DNA from: Ricordea florida
Lineage: Eukaryota > Cnidaria > Anthozoa > Corallimorpharia > Ricordeidae
Length of the DNA: 64,000 nucleotides
Direction of reading: 5' to 3'
NCBI GenBank assembly: GCA_949710005.1
Contig: OX453282.1
Coordinates: 3,463,501 to 3,527,500, forward strand
Part shown: piece after piece, positions 1,425 to 27,606 of the stretch
How the letters are laid out: each line of letters opens with the position of its first letter
How positions within the stretch are numbered: position 1 is the first letter of the stretch
The notes under the pieces: model-generated
Told to the model about the DNA's origin: nothing
The model's database searches: none
Seen by the model: only the letters and a program-made list of their open reading frames with translations
Program-made: the position numbers and the translations under genes

Positions 1425-2244
1425 GTGCTTAATTTTAGTGTAATGGGATGAAACCTATGTGATGCACAGCATTATTGGCATGCTGTCTCTATTTGCATCT
1501 TGCCATCTGTAGCAAAGCTGGTGATGTCAACTCCATCTTGTTTTGATGTTATAAAAACCAGATAATGGCAATCTTTCTCTTATTGAAAATAATTCAACTA
1601 TGCTGAATATATTTAAAACTATAACTATAAAATGAAGTGGATGGAACTCAATAAGGAGAATAAAACATTTCATCAGGTGTACAAAATGTCCTTGAATGTC
1701 CAAATACATTTTGTACAGTACCAGTGATAAAATTATCTCAACACAGTGCATCATTGCATGATGATAATTCCCTAATCCCATATATTCTCATCACCATTAG
1801 TAGTCCCTACAGTGTATGCTAATGCACCAATAAGATGTAAACTTTTACTGTGGTGATTTGAAGGGATAAATATTATACACTTAATGTATTGTCAGACTGA
1901 GGGAAACAGTTAGTTTTGTTTTCCAGAGAGTCCTGATGTTTCAGAACTCGAGGGAAAACAAAACTAACTAGTTTCCTGAGGGACCATACATCGAGTGCTT
2001 TGTTATATATTTGGACTTTCCCTTAACCCTTTAAGACCCAATCGTACATATTTGTACGATTTGACATGTGATCAAAAAAACGTGGGCCCACTTTTGTATG
2101 AATTATGGGATTGGGGTAGAAACATTATTATGGGATATCTAACAACACAAGGTTCTTCTTGATCGAGTTTTTGGGGAATTTCAATGCAATAGTTGCCGTT
2201 TTTTATCGATATTTCTGTGTCCGAGTTTTGGTGGTCATTTAAAA

Positions 2245-4352: not shown

Positions 4353-4939
4353 TAATGACTTGTGGACATTTATTTTCAGTGGACTTTGAAAAATGTAAAC
4401 ATGTTTTCTGTTCAATTTTGAAACCTGAGAGTTTAGTCTTTGTTCCTCTCAGCAGCAAGTAATTGCAACTCACCTTTACATTAGGGGTTACTTTATTGTA
4501 TTCAGGAATATTTACCTGTTTTTGCTTTTGAAAATACCTTCTTAGGACAAAGAATAGTATTTTTTCAAATTTCTTGCTTGTAAATAAGCCTCAAGTTTGG
4601 TTGATTTCAAAATACTGTTTACATTTGGCAGTCAACCGTCATTACACAAATGAGCATAATTTCTGTTCTATTTATGATATTCATAAGGGGTTTTTTTCAT
4701 TTGATTTCTTATAAAATTTGCCATTTGATTAACATAGGTAAAAAACAAAGAAGTTATCTTTTTATGGTGAAAAATGACACAGCTTGGTATTTATTGCTTT
4801 AAAACATCCATTTTTAGAAAGAAAATTTTATAAGGAATCCAAAAATGTATACTTTTATACCATTTAATTCTAGTCCTGATGAACTGTGACTCAAAATAAT
4901 GTTGCGGGTGGGGTGCAAAAAATTTTTCCAAAATAAATT
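4353..4939. other. 3' non-coding part of the piggyBac element
   Basis: AT-rich sequence between the transposase stop and the right terminal repeat. No further gene or exon is seen. Confidence 0.6.
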
Positions 4940-5116
4940 TGGGTCCTAAAGGGTTAAACAAAATATAGCAAAAACAAACAAACAAAGACGGCACAACTGC
5001 TATGTGGGCAACAACTGCGCAATTGTATCCCGGTCAGGATTTATTTATATTTGATCGGGGGCAGTGACCAAGAATCGACCAATCACAGTGCTCATTTTCT
5101 TGAGTGAAAGTCTAGG

Positions 5117-5163
5117 TATATAGCAATTAGTGTTGTTCAGTCAAAGAAAACAATTCATGTTGT
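5117..5163 (+). promoter_or_regulatory. Putative TATA promoter and coding start exon, copy B
   Basis: TATATAG at 5117-5123 and an initiator-like TTCAGTC at 5136-5142 precede ATG at 5157. ATG-TTG-T ends at donor GTATGT (5164), phase 1, as in copy A. The distance from TATA to the possible start site is slightly shorter than usual. The piggyBac right end lies about 160 bp upstream, so the transposon separates this core promoter from the upstream half of the duplicated block. Confidence 0.4.
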
Positions 5164-8100
5164 GTATGTGTTTGGGGTTGCTGTAATCAGTTTAAATTCT
5201 GAAATCACAGAAAGTGTTACATGCACTGGACATTCATTTTTTTGTTTACAACAGGTGCTGATAAAGTCTTGCATTCTCAAGAAATTGATGACAATACTAG
5301 CAGTTACTTTTCTGATGTTGACACTTCTTCTTGTTGTTCCTTTGACCTGGATACCAATTGGTCTGACTCAGAGGACAAAGGAACATTATCAATAGGTACT
5401 TAATGAAACCTATGTGATGCACAGCATAATTATTGGCATGCTGTCTCTATTTGCATCTTGCCATCTGTAGCAAAGCTGGTGATGTCAACTCTATCTTGTT
5501 TTGATGTTATGAAAACCAGATAATGGCCACATACAAAGAGTCTGGCCTGTGGTTTAGGCCAAGATATATTATAATAAGACTTTTCAGTCTCCCTAAATCA
5601 TTCCGTAGTTTTCAACAGAAATTACTTAACAGCTCAACATTCTCTAGTAAGCATCATCTCATAAACGGCAAGGACGCTTGCTTCCTCCCAACATATCATG
5701 CACTATACAGTTCCATCTGATTTATAACTGTGAGATACAAAAGTTCCACCAAGTTATCAAACATGAATACACGTTCCATTTGCTGTACACCAATACTTGT
5801 CAGTAATTGGTTTTAAACGACCTAAATGTATGTAAATTGTTTCCAAGTTTTTGCTTCAGATTCCAGCTACTTTTTTTTTTAGATCATTTTTATGTGTCTA
5901 TGGCATTTCGAGACAGTGGTTCTCTCAAAGCAACAGATGAGTCAGAGGCAGCAGTGTCAGACATGAGTTTGATGGCTGATGATGGTGGTGAGATGCTTGC
6001 AGGCAATTCCCAAAGACCATTAAATGGGTACTCTACTGGTGCTTTTTGCTGTGATGAATGGTTAAAGAGTATTGATGAAGCTAGTTCAGTGACAACAGAA
6101 GGAAAAGGAGTAAAATGCGAAGGTATAATAAGCCATGATGGCATCCCCTGTCGACACTAAACGACATTCTCTAGTAAGCATCATCTCATAAACAGCAAGG
6201 ATGCTTTCACTGACATTTATTCCTCCCAACATGTCACTCACTACAGTTCCGTCTGATTTTAAAACTGTGATGCAGTTACAAAATTTCCACCAAGTTATCA
6301 AACATGAATTAACAATTTCCATTTGCTGTACACCAATACTTGTCAGTAATCACCCTAAATGTATGTAAATTGTTTCCAAGTTTTGCTTCTCATTCCAGAG
6401 AATTTTTTTCATTTTAGAGATTAATAAAAGATGGTTGTCCATTGGGGAAGAAGTCAATGGTTCTCTCAAAGCAACAGACGAATCAGAGGCTGCAGTGTCA
6501 GACATGAGTTTGATGGCTGATGATGGTGGTGAGATGCATGTAGGCAATTCCCGAAGAACATTAAATGGGTGCTCTACTGGTGCTTTTTGCAGTCATGAAA
6601 CCAGGTTAAAGAGTATTGATGCAGCTAGTTCAGTGACAACGAAAGGTAAAGGAGTGAAATGCAAAGGTATAATAAGCCATGATGGCATCCCCTGTCAACA
6701 CTAAACGACATTCTCTAGTAAGCATCATCTCATAAACAGCAAGGATGCTTTCACTGACATTATTCCTCCCAACATGTCACTCACTAAAGTTCCGTCTGAT
6801 TTTAAAACTGTGATGCAGTTACAAAATTTCCACCAAGTTATCAAACATGAATTAACAATTTCCATTTGCTGTACACCAATACTTGTCAGTAATCACCCTA
6901 AATGTATGTAAATTGTTTCCAAGTTTTGCTTCTCATTCCAGAGAATGTTTTTCATTTTAGAGATAAGTAAAAGATGGTTGTCCATTGGGGAAGAAGTCAA
7001 TGGTTCTCTCAAAGCAACAGATGAGTCAGAGGCTGCAGTGTCAGACATGAGTTTGATGGCTTATGATGGTGGTGAGATGCATGTAGGCAATTCCCGAAGA
7101 ACAGTAAATGGGTGCTCTACTGGTGCTTTTTGCAGTCATGAAACCAGGTTAAAGCGTATTGATGTAGCTAGTTCAGTGACAACGGAAGGAAAAGGAGTGA
7201 AATGCGAAGGTATTAATAAGCCATGATGGCATCCCCTGTCGACACTAAATGACATTCTCTAGTAAGCATCATCTCATAAACAGCAAGGATGCTTTCACTG
7301 ACATTATTCCTCCCAACATGTCACTCACTACAGTTCTGTCTGATTTTAAAACTGTGATGCAGTTACAAAATTTCCACCAAGTTATCAAACATGAATTAAC
7401 AATTTCCATTTGCTGTACACCAATACTTGTCAGTAATCACCCTAAATGTATGTAAATTGTTTCCAAGTTTTGCTTCTCATTCCAGAGAATTTTTTTCATT
7501 TTAGAGATTAGTAAAAGATGGTTGGTCATTGGGAAAGAACTCAAGGGTTCTCTCAAAGCAGACAGTCAAGCATTGTACCTTTTGGCTGCAGCTCCATTAC
7601 CCATGGTTGGGTGGGTGCTGGAGCTCCCTTGCGACGTGCAGCATCGTCCTTTTGAGGTATGGTTGAAAGTGGGAAACGTTTTGTTCGCTTTTCTAGCTAT
7701 TTGCCACATTCCTGCACGGTAGGCTGCAAATCAGTGATCTTTCCCTGGTAACTTATCGTGAAGATTCGTCCCTTCCTCAGTTTTACTCTCCGTTGTGACA
7801 GCTTTCCGCGCGCATGTTGTTGACACTTTTTTTCTCGCGCACGTTCAGAACTGACGTCAAATTACGTGTAAAGTAGAGTAAGGCACACTTTTGAATTATG
7901 ATGTTGGAAGTCAAACATGAGAACCTCGTCTTAAGTTCTACCCTGTCTGTCTTTTCGCTTGTATAATTTTTTTTCTTGTCCTTGCTAATTGTTTCTTTTT
8001 GTGCATGAAATTTTGCAGGGATGCAAATTGTTGGATACGAACAGAGTCTCCTCTACTAACTATGATACGAACCATCCTCTCTGCTCCATTGATCCATTAA

Positions 8101-11100
8101 ACCCTACGAATTGTTTAAACTGCAACTGGCGTGCATTAGCAGAGCGACAAGGAGACAGCGACAAGGAGCGGAGTGAAGAGTTTATATTATCTAAAGGAAA
8201 AGGAGTGAAATGCAAAGGTATAATAAGCCATGATGGCATCCCCTGTCAACACTAAACGACATTCTCTAGTAAGCATCATCTCATAAACAGCAAGGATGCT
8301 TTCACTGACATTATTCCTCCCAACATGTCACTCACTAAAGTTCCGTCTAATTTTAAAACTGTGATGCAGTCACAAAATTTCCACCAAGTTATCAAACATG
8401 AATTAAGAATTTCCATTTGCTGTACACCAATACTTGTCAGTAATCACCCTAAATGTATATAAATTGTTTCCAAGTTTTGCTTCTCATTCCAGAGAATTTT
8501 TTTCATTTTAGAGATTAGTAAAAGATGGTTGTCCATTGGGGAAGAACTCGATGGTTCTCTCAAAGCAACAGATGAGTCAGAGGCTGCAGTGTCAGACATG
8601 AGTTTGATGGCTGATGATGGTGGTGAGATGCATGTAGGCAATTCCCGAAGAACATTAAATGGGTGCTCTACTGGTGCTTTGTGCAGTCATGAAACCAGGT
8701 TAAAGAGTATTGATGAAGCTAGTTCAGTGACAACGGAAGGAAAAGGAGTGAAATGTGAAGGTATTAATAAGCCATGATGGCATCCCCTGTCGACACTTAA
8801 CGACATTCTCTAGTAAGCATCATCTCATAAACAGCAAGGATGCTTTCACTGACATTATTCCTCCCAACATGTCACTCACTAAAGTTCCGTCTGATTTTAA
8901 AACTGTGATGCAGTGACAAAATTTCCACCAAGTTATCAAACATGAATTAAGAATTTCCATTTGCTGTACACCAATACTTGTCAGTAATCACCCTAAATGT
9001 ACGTAAATTGTTTCCAAGTTTTGCTTCTCATTCCAGAGAATTTTTTTCATTTTAGAGATAAGTAAAAGATGGTTGTCCATTGGGGAAGAACTCAATGGTT
9101 CTCTCAAAGCAACAGACGAGTCAGAGGCTGCAGTGTCAGACATGAGTTTGATGGCTGATGATGGTGGTGAGATGCATGTAGGCAATTCCCGAAGAACATT
9201 AAAATGGTGCTCTACTGGTGCTTTTTGCAGTCATGAAACCAGGTTAAAGAGTATCGATGCAGCTAGTTCAGTGACAACGAAAGGTAAAGGAGTGAAATGC
9301 AAAGGTATAATAAGCCATGATGGCATCCCCTGTCAACACTAAACGACATTTGTAGAAGGCACAAGTGTGATAAATGGACCCAAGCGTAATAAAGGTCCCA
9401 TCTGTAATAACTTTTGGACCCAAGTGTAATAAAGGTCCCATCTGTAATAACTTTTGGACCCAAGCGTAATAAAGGTCCTAATTAGCTTTATACTCAAACT
9501 GGTAATATGCCAACAACAAATTATGACCAATAAGAGGTAAAAGGAATAAAGTCACCTGATTTTATCTTCCGATGTTTTATGGCCAGTGAGGGTGAGTCTA
9601 ATGTTAAAACAATGAACATATTAATGAAATTGAGATTTTATGGGTGATTCTCCAGGTACCGGCACAGATGACGTAAAACAAGGCCATACAATAAAAAAAT
9701 GTCATTGAATAATTTATCCGCAATGGTGAAACAATGCGCTACGTCATCTGTGCCGGTACCTGGAGAAGGAGCCGATTTTATCGAGTGACCCTTGACATTG
9801 TACATGGTATTTCAAAACTCATGAATAATCCATAAAGGAAAAGCAAAAGAAATTAGTGTTTAATGAGTGTCTTTATACCTGATAAAGACATGGATAGACT
9901 TTCTTTCCAATTTTGTAGAGCAAAGTAAGCCCAAGTCTAGATATTAGAGCAAGAATGAGTTGATCTACATCGGAGATTTTTAGGCTATTCAAAAAACGAG
10001 CACGAGTGTATTGTCAGGTTAAAAGCTTGAGGCGAAGCGTAATCACTCATACCTCACCTTTTGAGGGAGTTATGTTACTAAATGTGGCCAAATTCAGCCG
10101 TGTGTGAAAAGATGCGAAAATGACCGAAATGAATACAGAGGGGGGGAATGAACACAATTCCACTGTATTGAAAACTGTTTAACCTATCAGTTTATCAAAG
10201 CGAACGGAACGGGAAAGATGCGACATATTTGCTTGTTCTGAAACTCTGACCTTTTTTTTTTAAGCATGTTCAGTTGTGGTCAGTAATTGCGAAAACTAGG
10301 CCGAGAGCCACGACAAGAGTTGTTGGCCTATATTTTTCCATTCAAATAGCTTGGTCACGTGACCTGTGACGTCAGCCATATAATTTAAGGTTAAAGATTA
10401 TAGATGTACTATTGTGGACATGTCTCATATTATGTAAGTTCATTACAGATGTGAACTTTATTACGCTTGTGTCCAAATGTTATTACAGATGGGACCTTTA
10501 TTACGCTTGGGTCCAATTATTACACTTGTGCCTTCTACAACATTCTCTAGTAAGCATCATCTCATAAACAGCAAGGATGCTTTCACTGACATTATTCCTC
10601 CCAACATGTCACTCACTACAGTTCCGTCTGATTTTAAAACTGTGATGCAGTTACAAAATTTCCACCGAGTTATCAAACATGAATTAAGAATTTCCATTTG
10701 CTGTACACCAATACTTGTCAGTAATCACCCTAAATGTATGTAAATTATTTCCAAGTTTTGCTTCTCATTCCAGAGAATTTTTTTCATTTTAGAGATTAGT
10801 AAAAGATGGTTGTCCATTGGGGAAGAACTCGATGGTTCTCTCAAAGCAACAGATGAGTCAGAGGCTGCAGTGTCAGACATGAGTTTGATGGCTGATGATG
10901 GTGGTGAGATGCATGTAGGCAATTCCCGAAGAACATTAAATGGGTGCTCTACTGGTGCTTTGTGCAGTCATGAAACCAGGTTAAAGAGTATTGATGAAGC
11001 TAGTTCAGTGATAACGAAAGGTAAAGGAGTGAAATGCGAAGGTATAATAAGCCATGATGGCATCCCCTGTTGACACTAAACGACATTCTCTAGTAAGCAT

Positions 11101-14100
11101 CATCTCATAAACAGCAAGGATGCTTTCACTGACATTATTCCTCCCAACATGTCACTCACTACAGTTCCATCTGATTTTAAAACTGTGATGTAGTTACAAA
11201 ATTTCCACCAAGTTATCAAACATGAATTAAGAATTTCCATTTGCTGTACACCAATACTTGTCAGTAATCACGGTAAATGTACGTAAATTGTTTCCAAGTT
11301 TTGCTTCTCATTCCAGAGAATTTTTTTCATTTTAGAGATTAGTAAAAGATGGTTGTCCATTGGGGAAGAACTCAATGGTTCTCTCAAAGCAACAGACGAA
11401 TCGGAGGCTGCAGTGTCAGACATGAGTTTGATGGCTGATGATGGTGGTGACATGCATGTAGGCAATTCCCGAAGAACAGTAAATGGGTGCTCTGCTGGTT
11501 CTTTTTGCAGTCATGAAACCAGGTTAAAGAGTATTGATGAAGCTAGTTCAGTGATAACGGATGATGTTGGAATGATGTTGGAAGGGATAACGAAAGGTAA
11601 AGGAGTGAAATGCGAAGGTATTAATAAGCCATGATGGCATCCCCTGTCGACACTAAATGACATTCTCTAGTAAGCATCATCTCATAAACAGCAAGGATGC
11701 TTTCACTGACATTATTCCTCCCAACATGTCACTCACTACAGTTCTGTCTGATTTTAAAACTGTGATGCAGTTACAAAATTTCCACCAAGTTATCAAACAT
11801 GAATTAACAATTTCCATTTGCTGTACACCAATACTTGTCAGTAATCACCCTAAATGTATGTAAATTGTTTCCAAGTTTTGCTTCTCATTCCAGAGAATTT
11901 TTTTCATTTTAGAGATTAGTAAAAGATGGTTGGTCATTGGGAAAGAACTCAAGGGTTCTCTCAAAGCAACAGATGAGTCAGAGGCTGCAGTGTCAGACAT
12001 GAGTTTGATGGCTGATGATGGTGGTGAGATGCATGTAGGCAATTCCCGAAGAACATTAAATGGGTGCTCTACTGGTGCTTTGTGCAGTCATGAAACCAGG
12101 TTAAAGAGTATTGATGAAGCTAGTTCAGTGACAACGGAAGGAAAAGGAGTGAAATGTGAAGGTATTAATAAGCCATGATGGCATCCCCTGTCGACACTTA
12201 ACGACATTCTCTAGTAAGCATCATCTCATAAACAGCAAGGATGCTTTCACTGACATTATTCCTCCCAACATGTCACTCACTAAAGTTCCGTCTGATTTTA
12301 AAACTGTGATGCAGTGACAAAATTTCCACCAAGTTATCAAATATGAATTAAGAATTTCCATTTGCTGTACACCAATACTTGTCAGTAATCACCCTAAATG
12401 TACGTAAATTGTTTCCAAGTTTTGCTTCTTATTCCAGAGAATTTTTTTCATTTTAGAGATAAGTAAAAGATGGTTGTCCATTGGGGAAGAACTCAATGGT
12501 TCTCTCAAAGCAACAGACGAGTCAGAGGCTGCAGTGTCAGACATGAGTTTGATGGCTGATGATGGTGGTGAGATGCATGTAGGCAATTCCCGAAGAACAT
12601 TAAAATGGTGCTCTACTGGTGCTTTTTGCAGTCATGAAACCAGGTTAAAGAGTATCGATGCAGCTAGTTCAGTGACAACGAAAGGTAAAGGAGTGAAATG
12701 CAAAGGTATAATAAGCCATGATGGCATCCCCTGTCAACACTAAACGACATTTGTAGAAGGCACAAGTGTGATAAATGGACCCAAGCGTAATAAAGGTCCC
12801 ATCTGTAATAACTTTTGGACCCAAGTGTAATAAAGGTCCCATCTGTAATAACTTTTGGACCCAAGCGTAATAAAGGTCCTAATTAGCTTTATACTCAAAC
12901 TGGTAATATGCCAACAACAAATTATGACCAATAAGAGGTAAAAGGAATAAAGTCACCTGATTTTATCTTCCGATGTTTTATGGCCAGTGAGGGTGAGTCT
13001 AATGTTAAAACAATGAACATATTAATGAAATTGAGATTTTATGGGTGATTCTCCAGGTACCGGCACAGATGACGTAAAACAAGGCCATACAATAAAAAAA
13101 TGTCATTGAATAATTTATCCGCAATGGTGAAACAATGCGCTACGTCATCTGTGCCGGTACCTGGAGAAGGAGCCGATTTTATCGAGTGACCCTTGACATT
13201 GTACATGGTATTTCAAAACTCATGAATAATCCATAAAGGAAAAGCAAAAGAAATTAGTGTTTAATGAGTGTCTTTATACCTGATAAAGACATGGATAGAC
13301 TTTCTTTCCAATTTTGTAGAGCAAAGTAAGCCCAAGTCTAGATATTAGAGCAAGAATGAGTTGATCTACATCGGAGATTTTTAGGCTATTCAAAAAACGA
13401 GCACGAGTGTATTGTCAGGTTAAAAGCTTGAGGCGAAGCGTAATCACTCATACCTCACCTTTTGAGGGAGTTATGTTACTAAATGTGGCCAAATTCAGCC
13501 GTGTGTGAAAAGATGCGAAAATGACCGAAATGAATACAGAGGGGGGGAATGAACACAATTCCACTGTATTGAAAACTGTTTAACCTATCAGTTTATCAAA
13601 GCGAACGGAACGGGAAAGATGCGACATATTTGCTTGTTCTGAAACTCTGACCTTTTTTTTTTAAGCATGTTCAGTTGTGGTCAGTAATTGCGAAAACTAG
13701 GCCGAGAGCCACGACAAGAGTTGTTGGCCTATATTTTTCCATTCAAATAGCTTGGTCACGTGACCTGTGACGTCAGCCATATAATTTAAGGTTAAAGATT
13801 ATAGATGTACTATTGTGGACATGTCTCATATTATGTAAGTTCATTACAGATGTGAACTTTATTACGCTTGTGTCCAAATGTTATTACAGATGGGACCTTT
13901 ATTACGCTTGGGTCCAATTATTACACTTGTGCCTTCTACAACATTCTCTAGTAAGCATCATCTCATAAACAGCAAGGATGCTTTCACTGACATTATTCCT
14001 CCCAACATGTCACTCACTACAGTTCCGTCTGATTTTAAAACTGTGATGCAGTTACAAAATTTCCACCGACTTATCAAACATGAATTAAGAATTTCCATTT

Positions 14101-17100: not shown

Positions 17101-20100
17101 TGAAACCAGGTTAAAGAGTATTGATGAAGCTAGTTCAGTGACAACGGAAGGAAAAGGAGTGAAATGTGAAGGTATTAATAAGCCATGATGGCATCCCCTG
17201 TCGACACTTAACGACATTCTCTAGTAAGCATCATCTCATAAACAGCAAGGATGCTTTCACTGACATTATTCCTCCCAACATGTCACTCACTAAAGTTCCG
17301 TCTGATTTTAAAACTGTGATGCAGTGACAAAATTTCCACCAAGTTATCAAACATGAATTAAGAATTTCCATTTGCTGTACACCAATACTTGTCAGTAATC
17401 ACCCTAAATGTACGTAAATTGTTTCCAAGTTTTGCTTCTCATTCCAGAGAATTTTTTTCATTTTAGAGATTAGTAAAAGATGGTTTTCCATTGGGGAAGA
17501 ACTCAATGGTTCTCTCAAAGCAACAGACGAGTCAGAGGCTGCAGTGTCAGACATGAGTTTGATGGCTGATGATGGTGGTGAGATGCATGTAGGCAATTCC
17601 CGAAGAACATTAAAATGGTGCTCTACTGGTGCTTTTTGCAGTCATGAAACCAGGTTAAAGAGTATCGATGCAGCTAGTTCAGTGACAACGAAAGGTAAAG
17701 GAGTGAAATGCAAAGGTATAATAAGCCATGATGGCATCCCCTGTCAACACTAAACGACATTTGTAGAAGGCACAAGTGTGATAAATGGACCCAAGCGTAA
17801 TAAAGGTCCCATCTGTAATAACTTTTGGACCCAAGTGTAATAAAGGTCCCATCTGTAATAACTTTTGGACCCAAGCGTAATAAAGGTCCTAATTAGCTTT
17901 ATACTCAAACTGGTAATATGCCAACAACAAATTATGACCAATAAGAGGTAAAAGGAATAAAGTCACCTGATTTTATCTTCCGATGTTTTATGGCCAGTGA
18001 GGGTGAGTCTAATGTTAAAACAATGAACATATTAATGAAATTGAGATTTTATGGGTGATTCTCCAGGTACCGGCACAGATGACGTAAAACAAGGCCATAC
18101 AATAAAAAAATGTCATTGAATAATTTATCCGCAATGGTGAAACAATGCGCTACGTCATCTGTGCCGGTACCTGGAGAAGGAGCCGATTTTATCGAGTGAC
18201 CCTTGACATTGTACATGGTATTTCAAAACTCATGAATAATCCATAAAGGAAAAACAAAAGAAATTAGTGTTTAATGAGTGTCTTTATACCTGATAAAGAC
18301 ATGGATAGACTTTCTTTCCAATTTTGTAGAGCAAAGTAAGCCCAAGTCTAGATATTAGAGCAAGAATGAGTTGATCTACATCGGAGATTTTTAGGCTATT
18401 CAAAAAACGAGCACGAGTGTATTGTCAGGTTAAAAGCTTGAGGCGAAGCGTAATCACTCATACCTCACCTTTTGAGGGAGTTATGTTACTAAATGTGGCC
18501 AAATTCAGCCGTGTGTGAAAAGATGCGAAAATGACCGAAATGAATACAGAGGGGGGGAATGAACACAATTCCACTGTATTGAAAACTGTTTAACCTATCA
18601 GTTTATCAAAGCGAACGGAACGGGAAAGATGCGACATATTTGCTTGTTCTGAAACTCTGACCTTTTTTTTTTAAGCATGTTCAGTTGTGGTCAGTAATTG
18701 CGAAAACTAGGCCGAGAGCCACGACAAGAGTTGTTGGCCTATATTTTTCCATTCAAATAGCTTGGTCACGTGATAATAATAATTTAAGGTTAAAGATTAT
18801 AGATGTACTATTGTGGACATGTCTCATATTATGTAAGTTCATTACAGATGTGAACTTTATTACGCTTGTGTCCAAATGTTATTACAGATGGGACCTTTAT
18901 TACGCTTGGGTCCAATTATTACACTTGTGCCTTCTACAACATTCTCTAGTAAGCATCATCTCATAAACAGCAAGGATGCTTTCACTGACATTATTCCTCC
19001 CAACATGTCACTCACTACAGTTCCGTCTGATTTTAAAACTGTGATGCAGTTACAAAATTTCCACCGAGTTATCAAACATGAATTAAGAATTTCCATTTGC
19101 TGTACACCAATACTTGTCAGTAATCACCCTAAATGTATGTAAATTGTTTCCAAGTTTTGCTTCTCATTCCAGAGAATTTTTTTCATTTTAGAGATTAGTA
19201 AAAGATGGTTGTCCATTGGGGAAGAACTCGATGGTTCTCTCAAAGCAACAGATGAGTCAGAGGCTGCAGTGTCAGACATGAGTTTGATGGCTGATGATGG
19301 TGGTGAGATGCTTGTAGGCAATTCCCAAAGAACATTAAATGGGTGCTCTACTGGTGCTTTTTGCAGTCATGAAACCAGGTTAAAGAGTATTGATGAAGCT
19401 AGTTCAGTGATAACGAATGTTGTTGGAATGATGTTGGAAGGGATAACGAAAGGTAAAGGAGTGAAATGCGAAGGTATAATAAGCCATGATGGCATCCCCT
19501 GTTGACACTAAACAACATTCTCTAGTAAGCATCATCTCATAAACAGCAAGGATGCTTTCACTGACATTTATTCCTCCCAACATGTCACTCACTACAGTTC
19601 CGTCTGATTTTAAAACTGTGATGCAGTTACAAAATTTCCACCAAGTTATCAAACATGAATTAACAATTTCCATTTGCTGTACACCAATACTTGTCAGTAA
19701 TCACCCTAAATGTATGTAAATTGTTTCCAAGTTTTGCTTCTCATTCCAGAGAATTGTTTTCATTTTAGAGATTAGTAAAGGATGGTTGTCCACTTGGGAA
19801 GAACTCAAACGTTCTTTCAAAGCAACAGATGAGTCAGAGGCTGCAGTGTCAGACATGAGTTTGATGGCTGATGATGGTGGTGAGATGCATGTAGGCAATT
19901 CCCGAAGAACATTGAATGGGTGCTCTACTGGTGCTTTTTGCAGTCATGAAACCAGGTTAAAGAGTATTGATGAAGCTAGTTCAGTGACAACGAAAGGTAA
20001 AGGAGTGAAATGCGAAGGTATAAGCCATGATGGCATCCCCTGTTTACACTAAACGACATTCTCTAGTAAGCATCATCTCATAAACAGCAAGGATGCTCTT

Positions 20101-23100
20101 TCACTGACATTATTCCTCCCAACCTGTCACTCACTACAGTTCCGTCTGATTTTAAAACTGTGATGCAGTTACAAAATTTCCACCAAGTTATCAAACATGA
20201 ATTAAGAATTTCCATTTGCTGTACACCAATACTTGTCAGTAATCACCCTAAATGTATGTAAATTGTTTCCAAGTTTTGCTTCTCATTCCAGAGAATTTTT
20301 TTCATTTTAGAGATTAGTAAAAGATGGTTGTCCATTGGGGAAGAACTCAAGGGTTCTCTCAAAGCAGACAGTCAAGCATTGTACCTTTTGCCTGCAGTTC
20401 CATTACGCATGGTTGTGTTCGAGCTGAATCTCCCTTGCGACGTGCAGCATCGTCCTTTTGAGGTATGGTTGAAAGTGGGAAACGTTTTGTTCGCTTTTCT
20501 AGCTATTTGCCACATTCCTGCACGGTAGGCTGCAAATCAGTGATCTTTCCCTGGTAACTTATCGTGAAGATTTGTCCCTTCCTCAGTTTTACTCTCCGTT
20601 GTGACAGCTTTCCGCGCGCATGTTGTTGACACTTTTTTTCTCGCGCACGTTCAGAACTGACGTCAAATTACGTGTAAAGTAGAGTAAGGCACACTTTTGA
20701 ATTATGATGTTGGAAGTCAAACATGAGAACCTCGTCTTAAGTTCTACCCTGTCTGTCTTTTCGCTTGTATAATTTTTTTTCTTGTCCTTGCTAATTGTTT
20801 CTTTTTGTGCATGAAATTTTGCAGGGATGCAAATTGTTGGATACGAACAGAGTCTCCTCTACTAACTATGATACGAACCATCCTCTCTGCTCCATTGATC
20901 CATTAAACCCTACGAATTGTTTAAACTGCAACTGGCGTGCATTAGCAGAGCGACAAGGAGACAGCGACAAGGAGCGGAGTGAAGAGTTTATATTATCTAA
21001 AGGAAAAGGAGTGAAATGCAAAGGTATAATAAGCCATGATGGCATCCCCTGTCAACACTAAACGACATTCTCTAGTAAGCATCATCTCATAAACAGCAAG
21101 GATGCTTTCACTGACATTATTCCTCCCAACATGTCACTCACTAAAGTTCCGTCTGATTTTAAAACTGTGATGCAGTGACAAAATTTCCACCAAGTTATCA
21201 AACATGAATTAAGAATTTCCATTTGCTGTACACCAATACTTGTCAGTAATCACCCTAAATGTACGTAAATTGTTTCCAAGTTTTGCTTCTCATTCCAGAG
21301 AATTTTTTTCATTTTAGAGATTAGTAAAAGATGGTTGTCCATTGGGGAAGAACTCAATGGTTCTCTCAAAGCAACAGACGAGTCAGAGGCTGCAGTGTCA
21401 GACATGAGTTTGATGGCTGATGATGGTGGTGAGATGCATGTAGGCAATTCCCGAAGAACATTAAAATGGTGCTCTACTGGTGCTTTTTGCAGTCATGAAA
21501 CCAGGTTAAAGAGTATCGATGCAGCTAGTTCAGTGACAACGAAAGGTAAAGGAGTGAAATGCAAAGGTATAATAAGCCATGATGGCATCCCCTGTCAACA
21601 CTAAACGACATTTGTAGAAGGCACAAGTGTGATAAATGGACCCAAGCGTAATAAAGGTCCCATCTGTAATAACTTTTGGACCCAAGTGTAATAAAGGTCC
21701 CATCTGTAATAACTTTTGGACCCAAGCGTAATAAAGGTCCTAATTAGCTTTATACTCAAACTGGTAATATGCCAACAACAAATTATGACCAATAAGAGGT
21801 AAAAGGAATAAAGTCACCTGATTTTATCTTCCGATGTTTTATGGCCAGTGAGGGTGAGTCTAATGTTAAAACAATGAACATATTAATGAAATTGAGATTT
21901 TATGGGTGATTCTCCAGGTACCGGCACAGATGACGTAAAACAAGGCCATACAATAAAAAAATGTCATTGAATAATTTATCCGCAATGGTGAAACAATGCG
22001 CTACGTCATCTGTGCCGGTACCTGGAGAAGGAGCCGATTTTATCGAGTGACCCTTGACATTGTACATGGTATTTCAAAACTCATGAATAATCCATAAAGG
22101 AAAAGCAAAAGAAATTAGTGTTTAATGAGTGTCTTTATACCTGATAAAGACATGGATAGACTTTCTTTCCAATTTTGTAGAGCAAAGTAAGCCCAAGTCT
22201 AGATATTAGAGCAAGAATGAGTTGATCTACATCGGAGATTTTTAGGCTATTCAAAAAACGAGCACGAGTGTATTGTCAGGTTAAAAGCTTGAGGCGAATC
22301 GTAATCACTCATACCTCACCTTTTGAGGGAGTTATGTTACTAAATGTGGCCAAATTCAGCCGTGTGTGAAAAGATGCGAAAATGACCGAAATGAATACAG
22401 AGGGGGGGAATGAACACAATTCCACTGTATTGAAAACTGTTTAACCTATCAGTTTATCAAAGCGAACGGAACGGGAAAGATGCGACATATTTGCTTGTTC
22501 TGAAACTCTGACCTTTTTTTTTTAAGCATGTTCAGTTGTGGTCAGTAATTGCGAAAACTAGGCCGAGAGCCACGACAAGAGTTGTTGGCCTATATTTATC
22601 CATTCAAATAGCTTGGTCACGTGACCTGTGACGTCAGCCATATAATTTAAGGTTAAAGATTATAGATGTACTATTGTGGACATGTCTCATATTATGTAAG
22701 TTCATTACAGATGTGAACTTTATTACGCTTGTGTCCAAATGTTATTACAGATGGGACCTTTATTACGCTTGGGTCCAATTATTACACTTGTGCCTTCTAC
22801 AACATTCTCTAGTAAGCATCATCTCATAAACAGCAAGGATGCTTTCACTGACATTATTCCTCCCAACATGTCACTCACTACAGTTCCGTCTGATTTTAAA
22901 ACTGTGATGCAGTTACAAAATTTCCACCGAGTTATCAAACATGAATTAAGAATTTCCATTTGCTGTACACCAATACTTGTCAGTAATCACCCTAAATGTA
23001 TGTAAATTATTTCCAAGTTTTGCTTCTCATTCCAGAGAATTTTTTTCATTTTAGAGATTAGTAAAAGATGGTTGTCCATTGGGGAAGAACTCAATGGTTC

Positions 23101-26100
23101 TCTCAAAGCAACAGATGAGTCAGAGGCTGCAGTGTCAGACATGAGTTTGATGGCTGATGATGGTGGTGAGATGCATGTAGGCAATTCCCGAAGAACATTA
23201 AATGGGTGCTCTACTGGTGCTTTGTGCAGTCATGAAACCAGGTTAAAGAGTATTGATGAAGCTAGTTCAGTGATAACGAAAGGTAAAGGAGTGAAATGCG
23301 AAGGTATAATAAGCCATGATGGCATCCCCTGTTGACACTAAACGACATTCTCTAGTAAGCATCATCTCATAAACAGCAAGGATGCTTTCACTGACATTAT
23401 TCCTCCCAACATGTCACTCACTACAGTTCCATCTGATTTTAAAACTGTGATGTAGTTACAAAATTTCCACCAAGTTATCAAACATGAATTAAGAATTTCC
23501 ATTTGCTGTACACCAATACTTGTCAGTAATCACGGTAAATGTACGTAAATTGTTTCCAAGTTTTGCTTCTCATTCCAGAGAATTTTTTTCATTTTAGAGA
23601 TTAGTAAAAGATGGTTGTCCATTGGGGAAGAACTCAATGGTTCTCTCAAAGCAACAGACGAATCGGAGGCTGCAGTGTCAGACATGAGTTTGATGGCTGA
23701 TGATGGTGGTGACATGCATGTAGGCAATTCCCGAAGAACAGTAAATGGGTGCTCTGCTGGTTCTTTTTGCAGTCATGAAACCAGGTTAAAGAGTATTGAT
23801 GAAGCTAGTTCAGTGATAACGGATGATGTTGGAATGATGTTGGAAGGGATAACGAAAGGTAAAGGATGCGAAGGAAAAAGAAGAAGAAGAAGAAATGCGA
23901 AAAAGAAGAAAAAGAAGAAATGCGAAGGTATAATAAGCCATGATGGCATCCCCTGTTGACACTAAACGACATTCTCTAGTAAGCATCATCTCATAAACAG
24001 CAAGGATGCTCTTTCACTGACATTTTTGTAGAGCAAAGTAAGCCCAAGTCTAGATATTAGAGCAAGAATGAGTTGATCTACATCGGAGATTTTTAGGCTA
24101 TTCAAAAAACGAGCACGAGTGTATTGTCAGGTTAAAAGCTTGAGGCGAAGCGTAATCACTCATACCTCACCTTTTGAGGGAGTTATGTTACTAAATGTGG
24201 CCAAATTCAGCCGTCTGTGAAAAGATGCGAAAATGACCGAAATGAATACAGAGGGGGGGAATGAACACAATTCCACTGTATTGAAAACTGTTTAACCTAT
24301 CAGTTTATCAAAGCGAACGGAACGGGAAAGATGCGACATATTTGCTTGTTCTGAAACTCTGACCTTTTTTTTTTAAGCATGTTCAGTTGTGGTCAGTAAT
24401 TGCGAAAACTAGGCCGAGAGCCACGACAAGAGTTGTTGGCCTATATTTTTCCATTCAAATAGCTTGGTCACGTGACCTGTGACGTCAGCCATATAATTTA
24501 AGGTTAAAGATTATAGATGTACTATTGTGGACATGTCTCATATTATGTAAGTTCATTACAGATGTGAACTTTATTACGCTTGTGTCCAAATGTTATTACA
24601 GATGGGACCTTTATTACGCTTGGGTCCAATTATTACACTTGTGCCTTCTACAACATTCTCTAGTAAGCATCATCTCATAAACAGCAAGGATGCTTTCACT
24701 GACATTATTCCTCCCAACATGTCACTCACTACAGTTCCGTCTGATTTTAAAACTGTGATGCAGTTACAAAATTTCCACCAAGTTATCAAACATGAATTAA
24801 CAATTTCCATTTGCTGTACACCAATACTTGTCAGTAATCACCCTAAATGTATGTAAATTGTTTCCAAGTTTTGCTTCTCATTCCAGAGAATTTTTTTCAT
24901 TTTAGAGATTAGTAAAAGATGGTTGTCCATTGGGGAAGAACTCAATGGTTCTCTCAAAGCAACAGATGAGTCAGAGGCTGCAGTGTCAGACATGAGTTTG
25001 ATGGCTGATGATGGTGGTGAGATGCATGTAGGCAATTCCCGAAGAACATTAAATGGGTGCTCTACTGGTGCTTTGTGCAGTCATGAAACCAGGTTAAAGA
25101 GTATTGATGAAGCTAGTTCAGTGATAACGAAAGGTAAAGGAGTGAAATGCGAAGGTATAATAAGCCATGATGGCATCCCCTGTTGACACTAAACGACATT
25201 CTCTAGTAAGCATCATCTCATAAACAGCAAGGATGCTTTCACTGACATTATTCCTCCCAACATGTCACTCACTACAGTTCCATCTGATTTTAAAACTGTG
25301 ATGTAGTTACAAAATTTCCACCAAGTTATCAAACATGAATTAAGAATTTCCATTTGCTGTACACCAATACTTGTCAGTAATCACGGTAAATGTACGTAAA
25401 TTGTTTCCAAGTTTTGCTTCTCATTCCAGAGAATTTTTTTCATTTTAGAGATTAGTAAAAGATGGTTGTCCATTGGGGAAGAACTCAATGGTTCTCTCAA
25501 AGCAACAGACGAATCGGAGGCTGCAGTGTCAGACATGAGTTTGATGGCTGATGATGGTGGTGAGATGCATGTAGGCAATTCCCGAAGAACAGTAAATGGG
25601 TGCTCTGCTGGTTCTTTTTGCAGTCATGAAACCAGGTTAAAGAGTATTGATGAAGCTAGTTCAGTGATAACGGATGATGTTGGAATGATGTTGGAAGGGA
25701 TAACGAAAGGTAAAGGATGCGAAGGAAAAAGAAGAAGAAGAAGAAATGCGAAAAAGAAGAAAAAGAAGAAATGCGAAGGTATAATAAGCCATGATGGCAT
25801 CCCCTGTTGACACTAAACGACATTCTCTAGTAAGCATCATCTCATAAACAGCAAGGATGCTCTTTCACTGACATTTTTGTAGAGCAAAGTAAGCCCAAGT
25901 CTAGATATAAGAGCAAGAATGAGTTGATCTACATCGGAGATTTTTAGGCTATTCAAAAAACGAGCACGAGTGTATTGTCAGGTTAAAAGCTTGAGGCGAA
26001 GCGTAATCACTCATACCTCACCTTTTGAGGGAGTTATGTTACTAAATGTGGCCAAATTCAGCCGTGTGTGAAAAGATGCGAAAATGACCGAAATGAATAC

Positions 26101-27606
26101 AGAGGGGGGGAATGAACACAATTCCACTGTATTGAAAACTGTTTAACCTATCAGTTTATCAAAGCGAACGGAACGGGAAAGATGCGACATATTTGCTTGT
26201 TCTGAAACTCTGACCTTTTTTTTTTAAGCATGTTCAGTTGTGGTCAGTAATTGCGAAAACTAGGCCGAGAGCCACGACAAGAGTTGTTGGCCTATATTTT
26301 TCCATTCAAATAGCTTGGTCACGTGACCTGTGACGTCAGCCATATAATTTAAGGTTAAAGATTATAGATGTAGTATTGTGGACATGTCTCATATTATGTA
26401 AGTTCATTACAGATGTGAACTTTATTACGCTTGTGTCCAAATGTTATTACAGATGGGACCTTTATTACGCTTGGGTCCAATTATTACACTTGTGCCTTCT
26501 ACAACATTCTCTAGTAAGCATCATCTCATAAACAGCAAGGATGCTTTCACTGACATTATTCCTCCCAACATGTCACTCACTACAGTTCCGTCTGATTTTA
26601 AAACTGTGATGCAGTTACAAAATTTCCACCAAGTTATCAAATATGAATTAACAATTTCCATTTGCTGTACACCAATACTTGTCAGTAATCACCCTAAATG
26701 TATGTAAATTGTTTCCAAGTTTTGCTTCTCATTCCAGAGAATTTTTTTCATTTTAGAGAATAGTGAAAGGTTGGAAGGATCATTGAAGGTTCTGAATCGA
26801 GGTACATCATTCATATCGGAGTGCATACCGCATGAACTCTTTTTCTTTCGTCTTTCTGAGGTATGGTTGAAAGTGGGAAACGTTTTGTTCGCTTTTCTAG
26901 CTATTTGCCACATTCCTGCACGGTAGGCTGCAAATCAGTGATCTTTCCCTGGTAACTTATCGTGAAGAGTCGTCCCTTCCTCAGTTTTACTATCCGTTGT
27001 GACAGCTTTCCGCGCGCATGTTGTTGACACTTTTTTTCTCGCGCACGTTCAGAACTGACGTCAAATTACGTGTAAAGTAGAGTAAGGCACACTTTTGAAT
27101 TATGATGTTGGAAGTCAAACATGAGAACCTCGTCTAAAGTTCTACCCTGTCTGTCTTTTCGCTTGTATATTTTTTTTTCTTGTCCTTGCTAATTGTTTCT
27201 TTTTGTGCAGGAAATTTCAATTTGGAATTTGTTGCCTACGAGATTGGGGGCTATGAACATAGTCTCCTCTACTAACTATGATACGAACCATCCTCTCTGC
27301 TCCATTGATCCATTAAACCCTACGAATTGTTTAAACTTCAACTGGCGTTCGTTAGCAGAGCGACAAGGAGACAGCGACAAGGAGCGGAGTGAACAGCTTA
27401 TATTATCTAAAAGGATTGTGCGTCAAATTTTGCAGGAATGGAAATTGTTGGATATGAACCATCGTCTCTGCTCCATTAATCTATTAAACGCTGTGAATTG
27501 TTTAAACTGCAACTGGCGTGCATCAGCAGAGCGACAAGGAGACAGCGACAAGGAGCGAAGTGAAGAGCTTATATTATCTAAACGGATAACAAAACCCCAT
27601 CAGTGA
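5157..27606 (+). CDS. Unidentified repetitive protein gene built from a tandem exon array
   Basis: Proposed model: start exon 5157-5163, exon 2 5255-5395, then 21 type A, four B and four C exons. Type A exons carry one base of a codon over at each end (phase 1-1), B is 1-0 and C is 0-1, so any order found here stays in frame. Summing all exons gives 6,765 nt, divisible by three, with no stop until TGA 27604-27606. Exon length differences are multiples of three, whereas introns carry 1-nt indels and stops. The predicted protein is acidic, Ser/Asp-rich, with scattered Cys, without a visible signal peptide or membrane segment, and matches no family I know. The start could also lie upstream (exon 1-51 or copy A). 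Splicing is inferred, not observed. Confidence 0.6.
5255..5395 (+). CDS. 141-nt acidic exon (exon 2), copy B
   Basis: Bounded by TTTACAACAG| and AATAG|GTACTT, phase 1-1, 47 codons like copy A. It differs by a few residues (for example YFSDVD against YFADVD). It is the last exon before the array proper and would join A1 with a G|AT Asp codon. Confidence 0.5.
   Translation: MLIKSCILKKLMTILAVTFLMLTLLLVVPLTWIPIGLTQRTKEHYQ
5404..5882. other. Intron with a diverged founder copy of the array intron
   Basis: From about 5636 the sequence matches the intron module found between all array exons (CATTCTCTAGTAAGCATC, CTTGTCAGTAAT, TGTTTCCAAGTTTT) but with more substitutions and small indels than any later copy. 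This marks it as the oldest or least homogenised unit. Confidence 0.6.
5883..6122 (+). CDS. Array exon A1 (most diverged type A)
   Basis: 80 codons, phase 1-1, with a poly-T acceptor and the distal donor GCGAAG|GTATAA; the proximal GTAAAG donor of other copies is absent. The first residues (DHFYVSMAFRDSG) are unlike the EISKRWLSIGEE start of other A exons, while the acidic core DESEAAVSDMS is shared. It has CCDEW where the others have CSHET. Position at the array edge and divergence fit an edge copy not reached by homogenisation. Confidence 0.6.
6418..7209 (+). CDS. Array exons A2 (6418-6645) and A3 (6961-7209)
   Basis: Each starts after TTTTCATTTTAG| and encodes EISKRWLSIGEE, the acidic core and a C-terminal CSTGAFCSHETRLK segment. 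A2 has the proximal donor AAAG|GTAAAG (76 codons) and, 21 nt on, a second in-frame donor. A3 has lost the proximal GT (GGAAAAGG) and must use GAAG|GTATTA, giving 83 codons. Units are about 543 bp apart. Confidence 0.6.
7505..8217 (+). CDS. Array exon pair B1 (7505-7656) and C1 (8019-8217)
   Basis: B1 opens like an A exon (EISKRWLVIGKELKGSLKA) and then switches to a hydrophobic sequence ending CDVQHRPFE at donor GAG|GTATGG, phase 0. C1 begins after ATTTTGCAG| in phase 0 and encodes a Cys-containing segment (LCSIDPLNPTNCLNCNW) and a charged one (ERQGDSDKERSEE), ending in phase 1 at AAAG|GTATAA. The 1-0 and 0-1 phases make the pair a frame-neutral substitute for one A exon. The 362-bp intron between them is unrelated to the other array introns and contains TGACGTCA at 7852-7859. 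Confidence 0.55.
8512..9283 (+). CDS. Array exons A4 (8512-8760) and A5 (9056-9283)
   Basis: A4 uses only the distal donor (83 codons). A5 has the proximal donor (76 codons) and the TLKWCST variant in place of TLNGCST, a change shared with A9, A14 and A17. Each of these four copies is followed directly by the D element, so exon variant and insertion travel together. Confidence 0.58.
9346..10544. mobile_element. TIR element D, copy 1 (non-autonomous)
   Basis: An element of 1,189 bp (9351-10539) has terminal inverted repeats of about 60 bp starting TGTAGAAGGCACAAGTGT and is flanked by ACATT on both sides, a likely 5-bp target duplication; a 3-bp CAT with longer TIRs is equally consistent. GACCTTTATTACGCTTGGGT-type words are iterated within the ends. 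No transposase is encoded. A second inverted repeat with perfect 28-bp arms (CTCCAGGTACCGGCACAGAT core) is nested inside at about 9650-9770. GTCACGTGAC (10354) and TGACGTCA (10367) lie near the right end. Confidence 0.75.
10793..12684 (+). CDS. Array exons A6 to A9
   Basis: A6 10793-11020, A7 11336-11596, A8 11913-12161, A9 12457-12684; all are phase 1-1. A7 carries a 33-nt in-frame insertion (DDVGMMLEGIT) just before the donor, giving 87 codons. A8 opens LVIGKELKG like the B exons, then continues as type A. A9 is the TLKW variant. Exons A4-A7 and A8-A11 are offset by exactly 3,401 bp, so they are two rounds of one higher-order unit. Confidence 0.58.
12747..13945. mobile_element. TIR element D, copy 2
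   Basis: 12752-13940, 1,189 bp, essentially identical to copy 1 with the same flanks, offset by 3,401 bp. Identical junctions show amplification with the array rather than a new insertion. Confidence 0.75.
14194..14997 (+). CDS. Array exons A10 (14194-14421) and A11 (14737-14997)
   Basis: A10 is a standard 76-codon exon and A11 an 87-codon exon with the DDVGMMLEGIT insertion. Beyond the A11 proximal donor an in-frame purine-rich expansion runs to the distal donor at 15060, which would add 21 codons of Lys/Arg-rich sequence if that donor is used. Confidence 0.58.
15357..16051 (+). CDS. Array exon pair B2 (15357-15490) and C2 (15853-16051)
   Basis: B2 is 134 nt, 18 nt shorter than B1, and its middle (NWEEAYIQALHLLAEFPSPS) differs strongly from B1, while the ends and the CDVQHRPFE tail are kept. 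C2 is nearly identical to C1. Phases are again 1-0 and 0-1. Confidence 0.55.
16346..17694 (+). CDS. Array exons A12, A13 and A14
   Basis: A12 16346-16606 (261 nt), A13 16923-17171 (249 nt, distal donor only), A14 17467-17694 (228 nt, TLKW). They match A7-A8-A9 at a constant offset of 5,010 bp. A14 has TGGTTTTCC where the others have TGGTTGTCC, a Leu to Phe change. Confidence 0.58.
17757..18943. mobile_element. TIR element D, copy 3 (12-bp deletion)
   Basis: 17762-18938. Same ends and flanks as the other copies. A local deletion replaces the stretch from GTCACGTGAC through TGACGTCA with GTCACGTGATAATAATAA, which removes the CRE-like site and shortens the copy to 1,177 bp. Confidence 0.72.
19192..19996 (+). 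CDS. Array exons A15 (19192-19452) and A16 (19769-19996)
   Basis: A15 has the 33-nt insertion in a variant form (NVVGMMLEGIT) and the GEMLVGNSQ variant that otherwise resembles A1. A16 opens STWEELKRSFKA instead of SIGEELNGSLKA and has a shortened distal donor context (GAAG|GTATAAGCC). The preceding intron has an extra T (ACATTTATTCC) like the intron after A1. Confidence 0.58.
20311..21023 (+). CDS. Array exon pair B3 (20311-20462) and C3 (20825-21023)
   Basis: B3 resembles B1 but with substitutions in the hydrophobic middle (YLLPAVPLRMVVFELNLP). C3 is nearly identical to C1 and C2. Phases are 1-0 and 0-1. Confidence 0.55.
21318..21545 (+). CDS. Array exon A17
   Basis: 76 codons with the TLKW variant and the proximal donor, followed by element D as in the other TLKW copies. 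It lies 8,861 bp from A9, and the same offset holds for the next element D and for A18 and A19. Confidence 0.58.
21608..22806. mobile_element. TIR element D, copy 4
   Basis: 21613-22801, 1,189 bp, with the same TIRs, flanks and nested 28-bp inverted repeat as copies 1 and 2. Confidence 0.75.
23055..23858 (+). CDS. Array exons A18 (23055-23282) and A19 (23598-23858)
   Basis: A18 is a standard 76-codon exon. A19 is the 87-codon form; its distal donor at 23927 lies after a Lys/Arg-rich purine run six nucleotides longer than that of A11, so still in frame. Confidence 0.58.
24025..24652. mobile_element. TIR element D, 5'-truncated copy 5
   Basis: Only the right half of element D is present, joined to array intron sequence at CTGACATT|TTTGTAGAGCAAAG. 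The left TIR and the nested inverted repeat are missing. The right end and its flank are intact. Confidence 0.72.
24906..25709 (+). CDS. Array exons A20 (24906-25133) and A21 (25449-25709)
   Basis: The pair repeats A18-A19 at an offset of 1,851 bp, including the Lys/Arg-rich donor extension. A21 has GEMHVGNS where A19 has GDMHVGNS. Confidence 0.58.
25875..26503. mobile_element. TIR element D, 5'-truncated copy 6
   Basis: Same truncation junction as copy 5, 1,851 bp away, so the deletion happened once and was then duplicated with A20-A21. Confidence 0.72.
26757..26860 (+). CDS. Array exon B4 (unique sequence)
   Basis: 104 nt, phase 1-0, same acceptor and the same GAG|GTATGG donor and downstream intron as B1-B3, but nearly all encoded residues differ (ending ECIPHELFFFRLSE). 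Only the exon frame and intron surroundings identify it as type B. It joins the terminal exon. Confidence 0.5.
27211..27606 (+). CDS. Terminal exon C4 with an internal C duplication
   Basis: It starts in phase 0 after TTTTTGTGCAG| and runs 131 codons to TGA. It contains two C-type segments in tandem, each with LCSI, NCLN and the ERQGDSDKERSE motif. The second follows CAAATTTTGCAG|GAATGG, which is the acceptor context used by the internal C exons, so a latent or alternative phase-0 acceptor lies within the exon. No C copy elsewhere is doubled. Confidence 0.55.
   Translation, partial: EISIWNLLPTRLGAMNIVSSTNYDTNHPLCSIDPLNPTNCLNFNWRSLAERQGDSDKERSEQLILSKRIVRQILQEWKLLDMNHRLCSINLLNAVNCLNCNWRASAERQGDSDKERSEELILSKRITKPHQ

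Follow-up and report, generated by a model that had tools for sequence, protein, structure and literature searches.

A frame-neutral array of tandem exons with diverged B exons, possibly the 3' part of a longer gene of an anthozoan

The exon array and its reading frame

We analyzed a stretch of 64,000 nucleotides (referred to here as the window), which corresponds to positions 3463501-3527500 of contig C11 in a genome of 537.8 Mb and 48 contigs. It contains an array of tandem exons of three types, designated A, B and C, which is preceded by exons E1 and E2 and followed by the gene for ECM29, a proteasome adapter. The analysis suggests, with evenly balanced confidence, that the array belongs to a single protein-coding gene of a stony-coral-like anthozoan, of which it is the 3' part, and that this gene starts upstream of the window.

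The 31 exons (E1, E2, 21 A, four B and four C) were splice-joined in silico from the window DNA. With the upstream donor of the A exons, they give 6,765 nt encoding 2,254 residues, with a single stop at the very end. This reproduces exactly the continuous frame without internal stop that an earlier note on this DNA had described, with a protein of about 2,250 residues. The exon counts and phases given there (21 A exons, 1-1; four B, 1-0; four C, 0-1) were also recovered, and its exon lengths of 228, 240, 249 and 261 nt are those of A exons spliced at the upstream donor where one is available. A B+C module as a whole is 1-1, and the final C exon carries the stop. That account missed a second copy of E2, a second in-frame set of donors and a divergence that is confined to the B exons.

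The upstream donor, GTAAAG, was found in 16 of the 21 A exons. The downstream donor is GTAT(A/T)A (i.e., GTATAA or GTATTA), and with it the A exons are 240, 249, 282, 324 or 330 nt long. The spacing between the two donors is always a multiple of three, being 21 nt in 13 of the 16 copies and 63 or 69 nt in three copies that have a Lys/Arg-rich insert. Use of the downstream donors throughout gives 7,239 nt, likewise open (2,412 residues). In the upstream-donor set, the codon GAG is formed wherever an A or B exon joins a preceding A or C exon.

All array exons are on the forward strand. A exon 1 (5883-6122) has a diverged 5' end and lacks the upstream donor. A exons 2 to 21, with alternative ends in brackets, follow at 6418-6666 (6645), 6961-7209, 8512-8760, 9056-9304 (9283), 10793-11041 (11020), 11336-11617 (11596), 11913-12161, 12457-12705 (12684), 14194-14442 (14421), 14737-15060 (14997), 16346-16627 (16606), 16923-17171, 17467-17715 (17694), 19192-19473 (19452), 19769-20017 (19996), 21318-21566 (21545), 23055-23303 (23282), 23598-23927 (23858), 24906-25154 (25133) and 25449-25778 (25709). 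The B exons are B1 (7505-7656), B2 (15357-15490, 18 nt shorter than B1), B3 (20311-20462) and B4 (26757-26860), and each is separated from its C exon by a copy of intron B (7657-8018, 15491-15852, 20463-20824 and 26861-27210). C1 (8019-8217), C2 (15853-16051) and C3 (20825-21023) are identical, and the terminal C4, which differs by about 10%, occupies 27211-27606. Inside C4 the C segment is duplicated (27280-27416 and 27451-27587). The sequence ahead of the second C segment looks like an intron B 3' end and retains an intact CAG at 27436; as an alternative acceptor, this CAG would preserve the frame. Within the array, the introns that precede A and B exons are 293, 294, 295, 296, 978, 1,476 or 1,488 nt long.

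The A exons and the B+C modules form a frame-neutral tandem array, since the introns on either side of each unit share one phase. When the last B+C module was always kept and the upstream exons described below were placed in front together with the first E2 copy, 2,000 subsets drawn at random from the first 24 modules all kept the frame and had no early stop. In its frame, the array agrees with the earlier note, which spoke of a design that allows copies to be gained, lost or skipped, but the word design overclaims: phase 1-1 exons multiplied by unequal crossing-over are frame-neutral automatically, and special design is unnecessary.

Comparison of the array with itself revealed block pairs of 3,407, 3,397, 3,026 and 2,736 bp at 99.2-99.6% identity. 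Seven of the 30 listed block pairs are 1.7-3.4 kb long and 99.2-99.7% identical, and the remaining listed pairs are 95.7-98.8% identical. These are near-identical intragenic repeat units. An inverted-repeat element of 1,189 bp in an A intron (9351-10539, no strand assigned), which is flanked by a 5-bp target duplication, was duplicated together with the modules. Block duplications that carry along such an element are what repeated unequal crossing-over would produce. Full copies of the element start at about 12752, 17762 and 21613, and only its 3' part is present at about 24021 and 25872; the element also contains a nested palindrome. Near-identical blocks of up to 3.4 kb are a classic site of assembly error, and a shorter real array could have been inflated or mis-ordered. 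We consider this very improbable: the modules carry distinct combinations of elements, length classes and point changes, they lie in a contig of 29 Mb, and such an error would alter the copy number and not the pattern in the B exons.

Divergence of the B exons and coding status of the array

For the comparison of the four B+C modules (six pairs), we took the exons together with the 250 nt at the end of the upstream intron and the initial 335 nt of intron B. Across the six pairs, the upstream A-type intron piece differs by 0.8-1.2% and the intron B piece by 0.3-1.5%. Divergence of the B exons is 8, 14 and 16% for the three pairs within B1-B3, and B4 is 40-43% different from each of these. The ratio of B exon to intron divergence is 12-42 in all six pairs (Fisher P 4e-6 to 6e-35, the pairs not being independent). 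The changes among B1-B3 are internal to the exon (positions 17-119 of 152), and those of B4 approach both splice sites. In the B exons that can be aligned, most changes are nonsynonymous. B1 and B3 differ over the whole exon by 12 nonsynonymous and no synonymous changes (P 0.045). Over the last 99 nt, there are 13 nonsynonymous and 3 synonymous changes between B1 and B2, and 14.5 and 1.5, respectively, between B2 and B3. For the B1-B3 and B2-B3 comparisons combined, the nonsynonymous excess has a P of 0.006 to 0.027 depending on rounding.

Three other origins of this pattern were considered and set aside. A mobile intron was rejected, as intron B has four matches in the genome, all within the array. 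Import of B4 from elsewhere was dropped after a DNA search of the genome with B4 returned only B4 itself; this search did not list B1-B3 either, so that a diverged donor would be missed. With the intron B and B4 matches confined to the array, neither a dispersed element nor a near-identical donor was apparent. Finally, the edge of a conversion tract was rejected as the sole cause because it would account for one side only, and the introns are conserved on both flanks of B. The simplest reading of the aligned modules is that they are young and that their B segment was strongly diversified, through both point changes and the replacement of segments. The pattern looks coding and diversifying.

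Further evidence bears on coding. No stop was found among 205 counted exon changes, which are not all mutually independent; the neutral probability of this is 7e-5. Without two poorly aligned comparisons (78 changes), we obtained a probability of about 0.0035 as our own product of factors. All length changes of exons keep the frame, and some of those of introns do not. Splice sites of the A, B and C exons, donors as well as acceptors, score within the range of real ECM29 sites, with A exon 1 and C1-C3 near the lower end. In codon usage, all 15 distinct A exons exceed the 95th percentile set by 54 noncoding windows with an open frame.

Other observations count against the array being the coding end of one gene, and several of them would also fit a decayed or non-coding array, i.e., a dead gene end that was recently multiplied and whose frame is open merely because the copies are young. 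Among 20 A exons (A exon 1 excluded), there are 28 nonsynonymous and 6 synonymous distinct changes on 173.5 and 48.5 sites, a ratio near one; the probability of 6 or fewer synonymous changes is 0.36, and purifying selection is thus not seen. With A exon 1 again excluded, the A exons are more variable than their own introns (34/222 versus 21/255, P 0.02). Such variability and a ratio near one are also compatible with absent coding constraint. In comparisons of A exon 1 with six further A exons, its core shows no significant excess of conservation over the preceding intron (P 0.08 to 1). Codon usage is equivocal as coding evidence, since both C forms, both E2 copies and B4 are below the 95th percentile and another A frame, though it contains stops, scores higher; in the control, six of 16 held-out ECM29 pieces also fail that percentile. 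The contrast in length changes, to which the earlier note had pointed, is real and weak, since by hand count three of seven intron events are not multiples of three. The nonsynonymous excess in B is borderline as support. AlphaFold models of C4 and A have a predicted local distance difference test (pLDDT) score of 39.5 and 44.3, too poor for a structure search, and no relative of the array protein was found within the scope searched.

Decay would also agree with introns that are no more variable than exons, with several blocks that are 99% alike and hence young, and with the empty result of two length-limited protein database searches. The absence of stops among the exon changes, which retains a low probability after removal of the poorest alignments, and the frame-keeping of all exon length changes argue against it, and neutrality does not restrict divergence to B exons that are flanked by two conserved introns. 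We regard decay as unlikely, and on balance the sequences favour a coding locus.

The search for relatives covered the genome itself and several databases. The genome match counts are lower bounds. A DNA has at least 23 matches and the C peptide at least five, all in the array. The A peptide has at least 24, of which 23 are in the array; the remaining one, outside it, does not rise above chance (E 3.9, two stops), so that no relative of A or C beyond chance level was found elsewhere in the genome. In the protein database, a 488-residue joined query, which covered proteins of about 268-854 residues, had no match. Neither had a 99-residue A query, which covered about 54-173 residues, so that relatives of 174-267 or at least 855 residues were outside these searches. 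A control search with partial ECM29 gave 501 matches; Oculina patagonica (75% identity), Montipora (71%), Pocillopora (70%) and Acropora (68%) were among the best named of the 120 listed. The database therefore holds corals, and the species under study is seemingly absent from it (best identity 75-76% among the matches listed). As stony corals are among the best named ECM29 matches, the DNA appears to be of stony-coral-like anthozoan origin.

Family searches returned nothing above threshold, in agreement with the earlier note, which had matched the protein to no family. Pfam gave sub-threshold hits on A (zf-FLZ, E 0.013; ribosomal S12, 0.025; herpes glycoprotein, 0.2) and nothing on the other four of five array pieces. 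PDB gave nothing for two C queries, Rfam found no family in window 1-30000, and in prokaryote and viral contigs there were pattern matches and no confirmed relative. The C segment weakly, and not consistently, resembles part of a death domain. Against three death domains, shuffle P values were 0.008, 0.009 and 0.049 for the C segment and 0.008, 0.076 and 0.143 for the C4b copy (four of six below 0.05), and with four queries no Pfam family, the Death model included, was matched at E up to 10. Since the searches were empty, the protein is unrecognised; it apparently has a narrow distribution or evolves too fast for matching by five-residue words.

The upstream gene, the start of the array gene and the neighbouring genes

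In the 10 kb upstream of the window and window bases 1-51, we placed eight exons on the same strand that give 450 open residues. This upstream gene would start at least 7.4 kb ahead of the window; its first ATG is our choice, and further 5' exons are possible. Exon 8 begins upstream of the window, and its 3' end (...TDWLELVHAVEGANKQS) occupies 1-51 on the forward strand, with the donor CAA|GTAAGT in phase 1. E2 likewise starts in phase 1. It is present in two copies, E2up (1284-1424) and E2dn (5255-5395), both 1-1 and on the forward strand. The sites were scored with a model built from 37 introns of ECM29. The exon 8 donor is at the 46th percentile of real ECM29 donors, and the E2up acceptor, whose phase matches exon 8, ranks among the best-scoring 0.3% of AG sites in the stretch. 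When the upstream exons were joined to the array with both, either or neither E2 copy and with either donor set, all eight variants were open (2,655-2,907 residues).

The earlier note had started the protein at 5157, in E1 (5157-5163, forward strand). E1 is a doubtful exon, as its donor scores lower than every one of the 37 ECM29 donors. With this poor donor, and with an ordinary exon 8 donor and a strong E2up acceptor in the same phase, the start at 5157 is probably wrong; the gene probably begins beyond the window, and the locus would be the tail of a longer gene.

The alternative is that the upstream gene ends at E2up and that the array is a separate gene, transcribed alone from a TATA-like site before E1 or from the ATG of A exon 1. 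We think this rather unlikely, though some features agree with it. The E2 donors are weak and are followed, after two codons, by an in-frame TAA, and there is an AATAAA at 1659; E2up may therefore be an alternative or ancestral last exon. A TATA-like motif and an ATG precede E1. Both copies of the region have them and show one difference, in the motif or next to it. A exon 1 contains an in-frame ATG. Among the splice sites of the longer gene, the donors of exons 1 and 2, the acceptor of exon 8 and those of A exon 1 and C1-C3 are at the 5th-8th percentile of ECM29 sites, which also weakens the case for a single gene. A separate gene started at E1 would have to use the poor donor described above. 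In addition, phase 1 is common to exon 8, E2 and A, and no stop arises where they are joined, the phase match alone having a one-in-three chance.

The N-terminal region of the longer gene, if the array is indeed its 3' part, offers a lead to a TIG and ankyrin protein of the signalling or transcription type. The match to Pfam PF01833 (TIG/IPT) is weak (13.0 bits versus a cut-off of 20.9, E 0.1), which again does not favour the proposal. The weak similarity of an ankyrin-like stretch is chiefly to designed ankyrin proteins (best E 8e-5 with the sequence as a whole, no stretch passing alone), and the Pfam ankyrin model has no match in the upstream protein. No Rel homology domain was found in the 450 residues. 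The N-terminal domain has a sub-threshold hit to Pfam RNR_Alpha (E 0.007-0.011), and the protein one to DEPP (E 0.075, below cut-off). Kinship with BCAP/DBB was dropped after a pairwise comparison with one segment gave nothing. The product looks intracellular, as we infer.

Paralogous pieces of the upstream gene (E below 1e-6) occur at four further places in the genome: C11:3392925-3393293, with one in-frame TAG, C11:3379095-3379262, C5:3989880-3990182 on the reverse strand, and C13:14643995-14644222. The N-terminal domain, matched at 41% on C5, has no Pfam family above cut-off, and PDB gave nothing for its C5 paralog. The C13 exon hits Pfam VWA_3_C at E 0.0005, below the cut-off of that family. 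In the C5, C13 and C11 paralog regions, tblastn with A found no match with E below 1, and tblastn with C gave chance-level matches only (best E 0.043, containing a stop). The paralogs were therefore dropped as a guide to the ancestral 3' end.

The E2 region is itself tandemly duplicated (528-2026 and 4954-5535; the unit comprises a repeat of approximately 460 bp and the E2 region, and its copies are about 96% identical), and its second copy is interrupted at TTAA by an element at 2023-4957 on the forward strand. From its features we take this element, which lies between TTAA sites, to be piggyBac-like, with no family assignment. It has a transposase frame in two parts (2245-4352), with one in-frame stop in the second.

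The ECM29 gene, downstream of the array at 30815-63453, is incomplete within the window. Its identity is supported by two of three tested pieces that match Pfam PF13001. We placed 38 exons by eye, which gave 1,295 open residues and served as the control for splice sites and codon usage. One ECM29 intron contains about 28 tandem copies of a 106-bp unit (51269-54267, 98% matches), and shorter arrays with a 106-bp period are present at 47294-47625 and 49352-49709.

Proposed explanation and comparison with known systems

The proposed gene would encode, in order, an N-terminal domain of no named family, TIG-like and ankyrin-like parts, an acidic Ser/Asp-rich segment (E2, in two copies) and the modules. 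Its tail would consist of 24 exchangeable modules (21 A and three B+C) and a fixed last B+C. A exons and B+C modules, all 1-1, would multiply by unequal crossing-over, so that the length of the tail could vary freely; introns and other parts would be alike because the copies are young. The B exon would encode an exposed segment under diversifying selection. The product would probably be a multivalent, largely disordered tail that repeats a short acidic motif on a signalling or transcription protein with TIG and ankyrin parts, perhaps in defence; this function is a guess from architecture and rate of change. Unlikely, and offered as speculation, is that the gene diversifies itself, the frame-neutral array setting the tail length and the B exons forming a variable repertoire in an intracellular protein of the TIG/ankyrin type. 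B variants could then be exposed through changes in copy number or through exon choice.

Exon arrays are expected to homogenise as a whole; here, the introns are near identical and the B exon races ahead in every pair. If expressed, the locus would offer a small natural system in which mutation, gene conversion and selection could be told apart. It would also be a candidate for a fast-evolving coral gene of defence or recognition that was found without homology.

Mutually exclusive exon arrays such as that of Dscam consist of tandem homologous exons in one gene. The present array shares this feature, but its phases permit any number of exons together, and the frame enforces no choice of one exon per mRNA. 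In the architecture of NF-kappa-B p100/p105, a TIG domain is followed by ankyrin repeats and a death domain. The proposed gene has a similar order (TIG-like, ankyrin-like, an acidic linker, and a C segment that weakly resembles part of a death domain), but it has no Rel domain in the 450 residues and no match at a curated cut-off.

In Tetrahymena, leucine-rich repeat (LRR) genes number in the thousands and have tandem 90-bp exons with phase-2 introns, for which unequal crossing-over was proposed (PMC6564038). They resemble the present locus in having same-phase tandem exons, any number of which remains in frame, intragenic repeat units and mobile elements nearby. They differ in that only one locus was found here, in an animal, with A exons of 228-330 nt plus a two-exon B+C module in phase 1. 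The array pieces have no Pfam match to LRRs and lack 90-bp exons with phase-2 introns.

In accelerated segment switch in exons (ASSET), described for three-finger toxin genes of snake venom, exon segments were replaced or diverged and introns remained highly similar (PMC2711939; PMC2474615). This agrees with the present locus, where B exons diverged and flanking introns are conserved in six of six pairs. ASSET is known between paralogous toxin genes, whereas here the divergence is between exon copies inside one gene, and nothing hints at toxicity or secretion. For a frame-neutral array combined with ASSET-like divergence inside one gene, no description was found in listings of open-licence literature, and earlier reports are possible. 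Tandem symmetric exons that arise by unequal exchange, and exon divergence with conserved introns, are each already known; it is their combination in one gene that we have not seen described.

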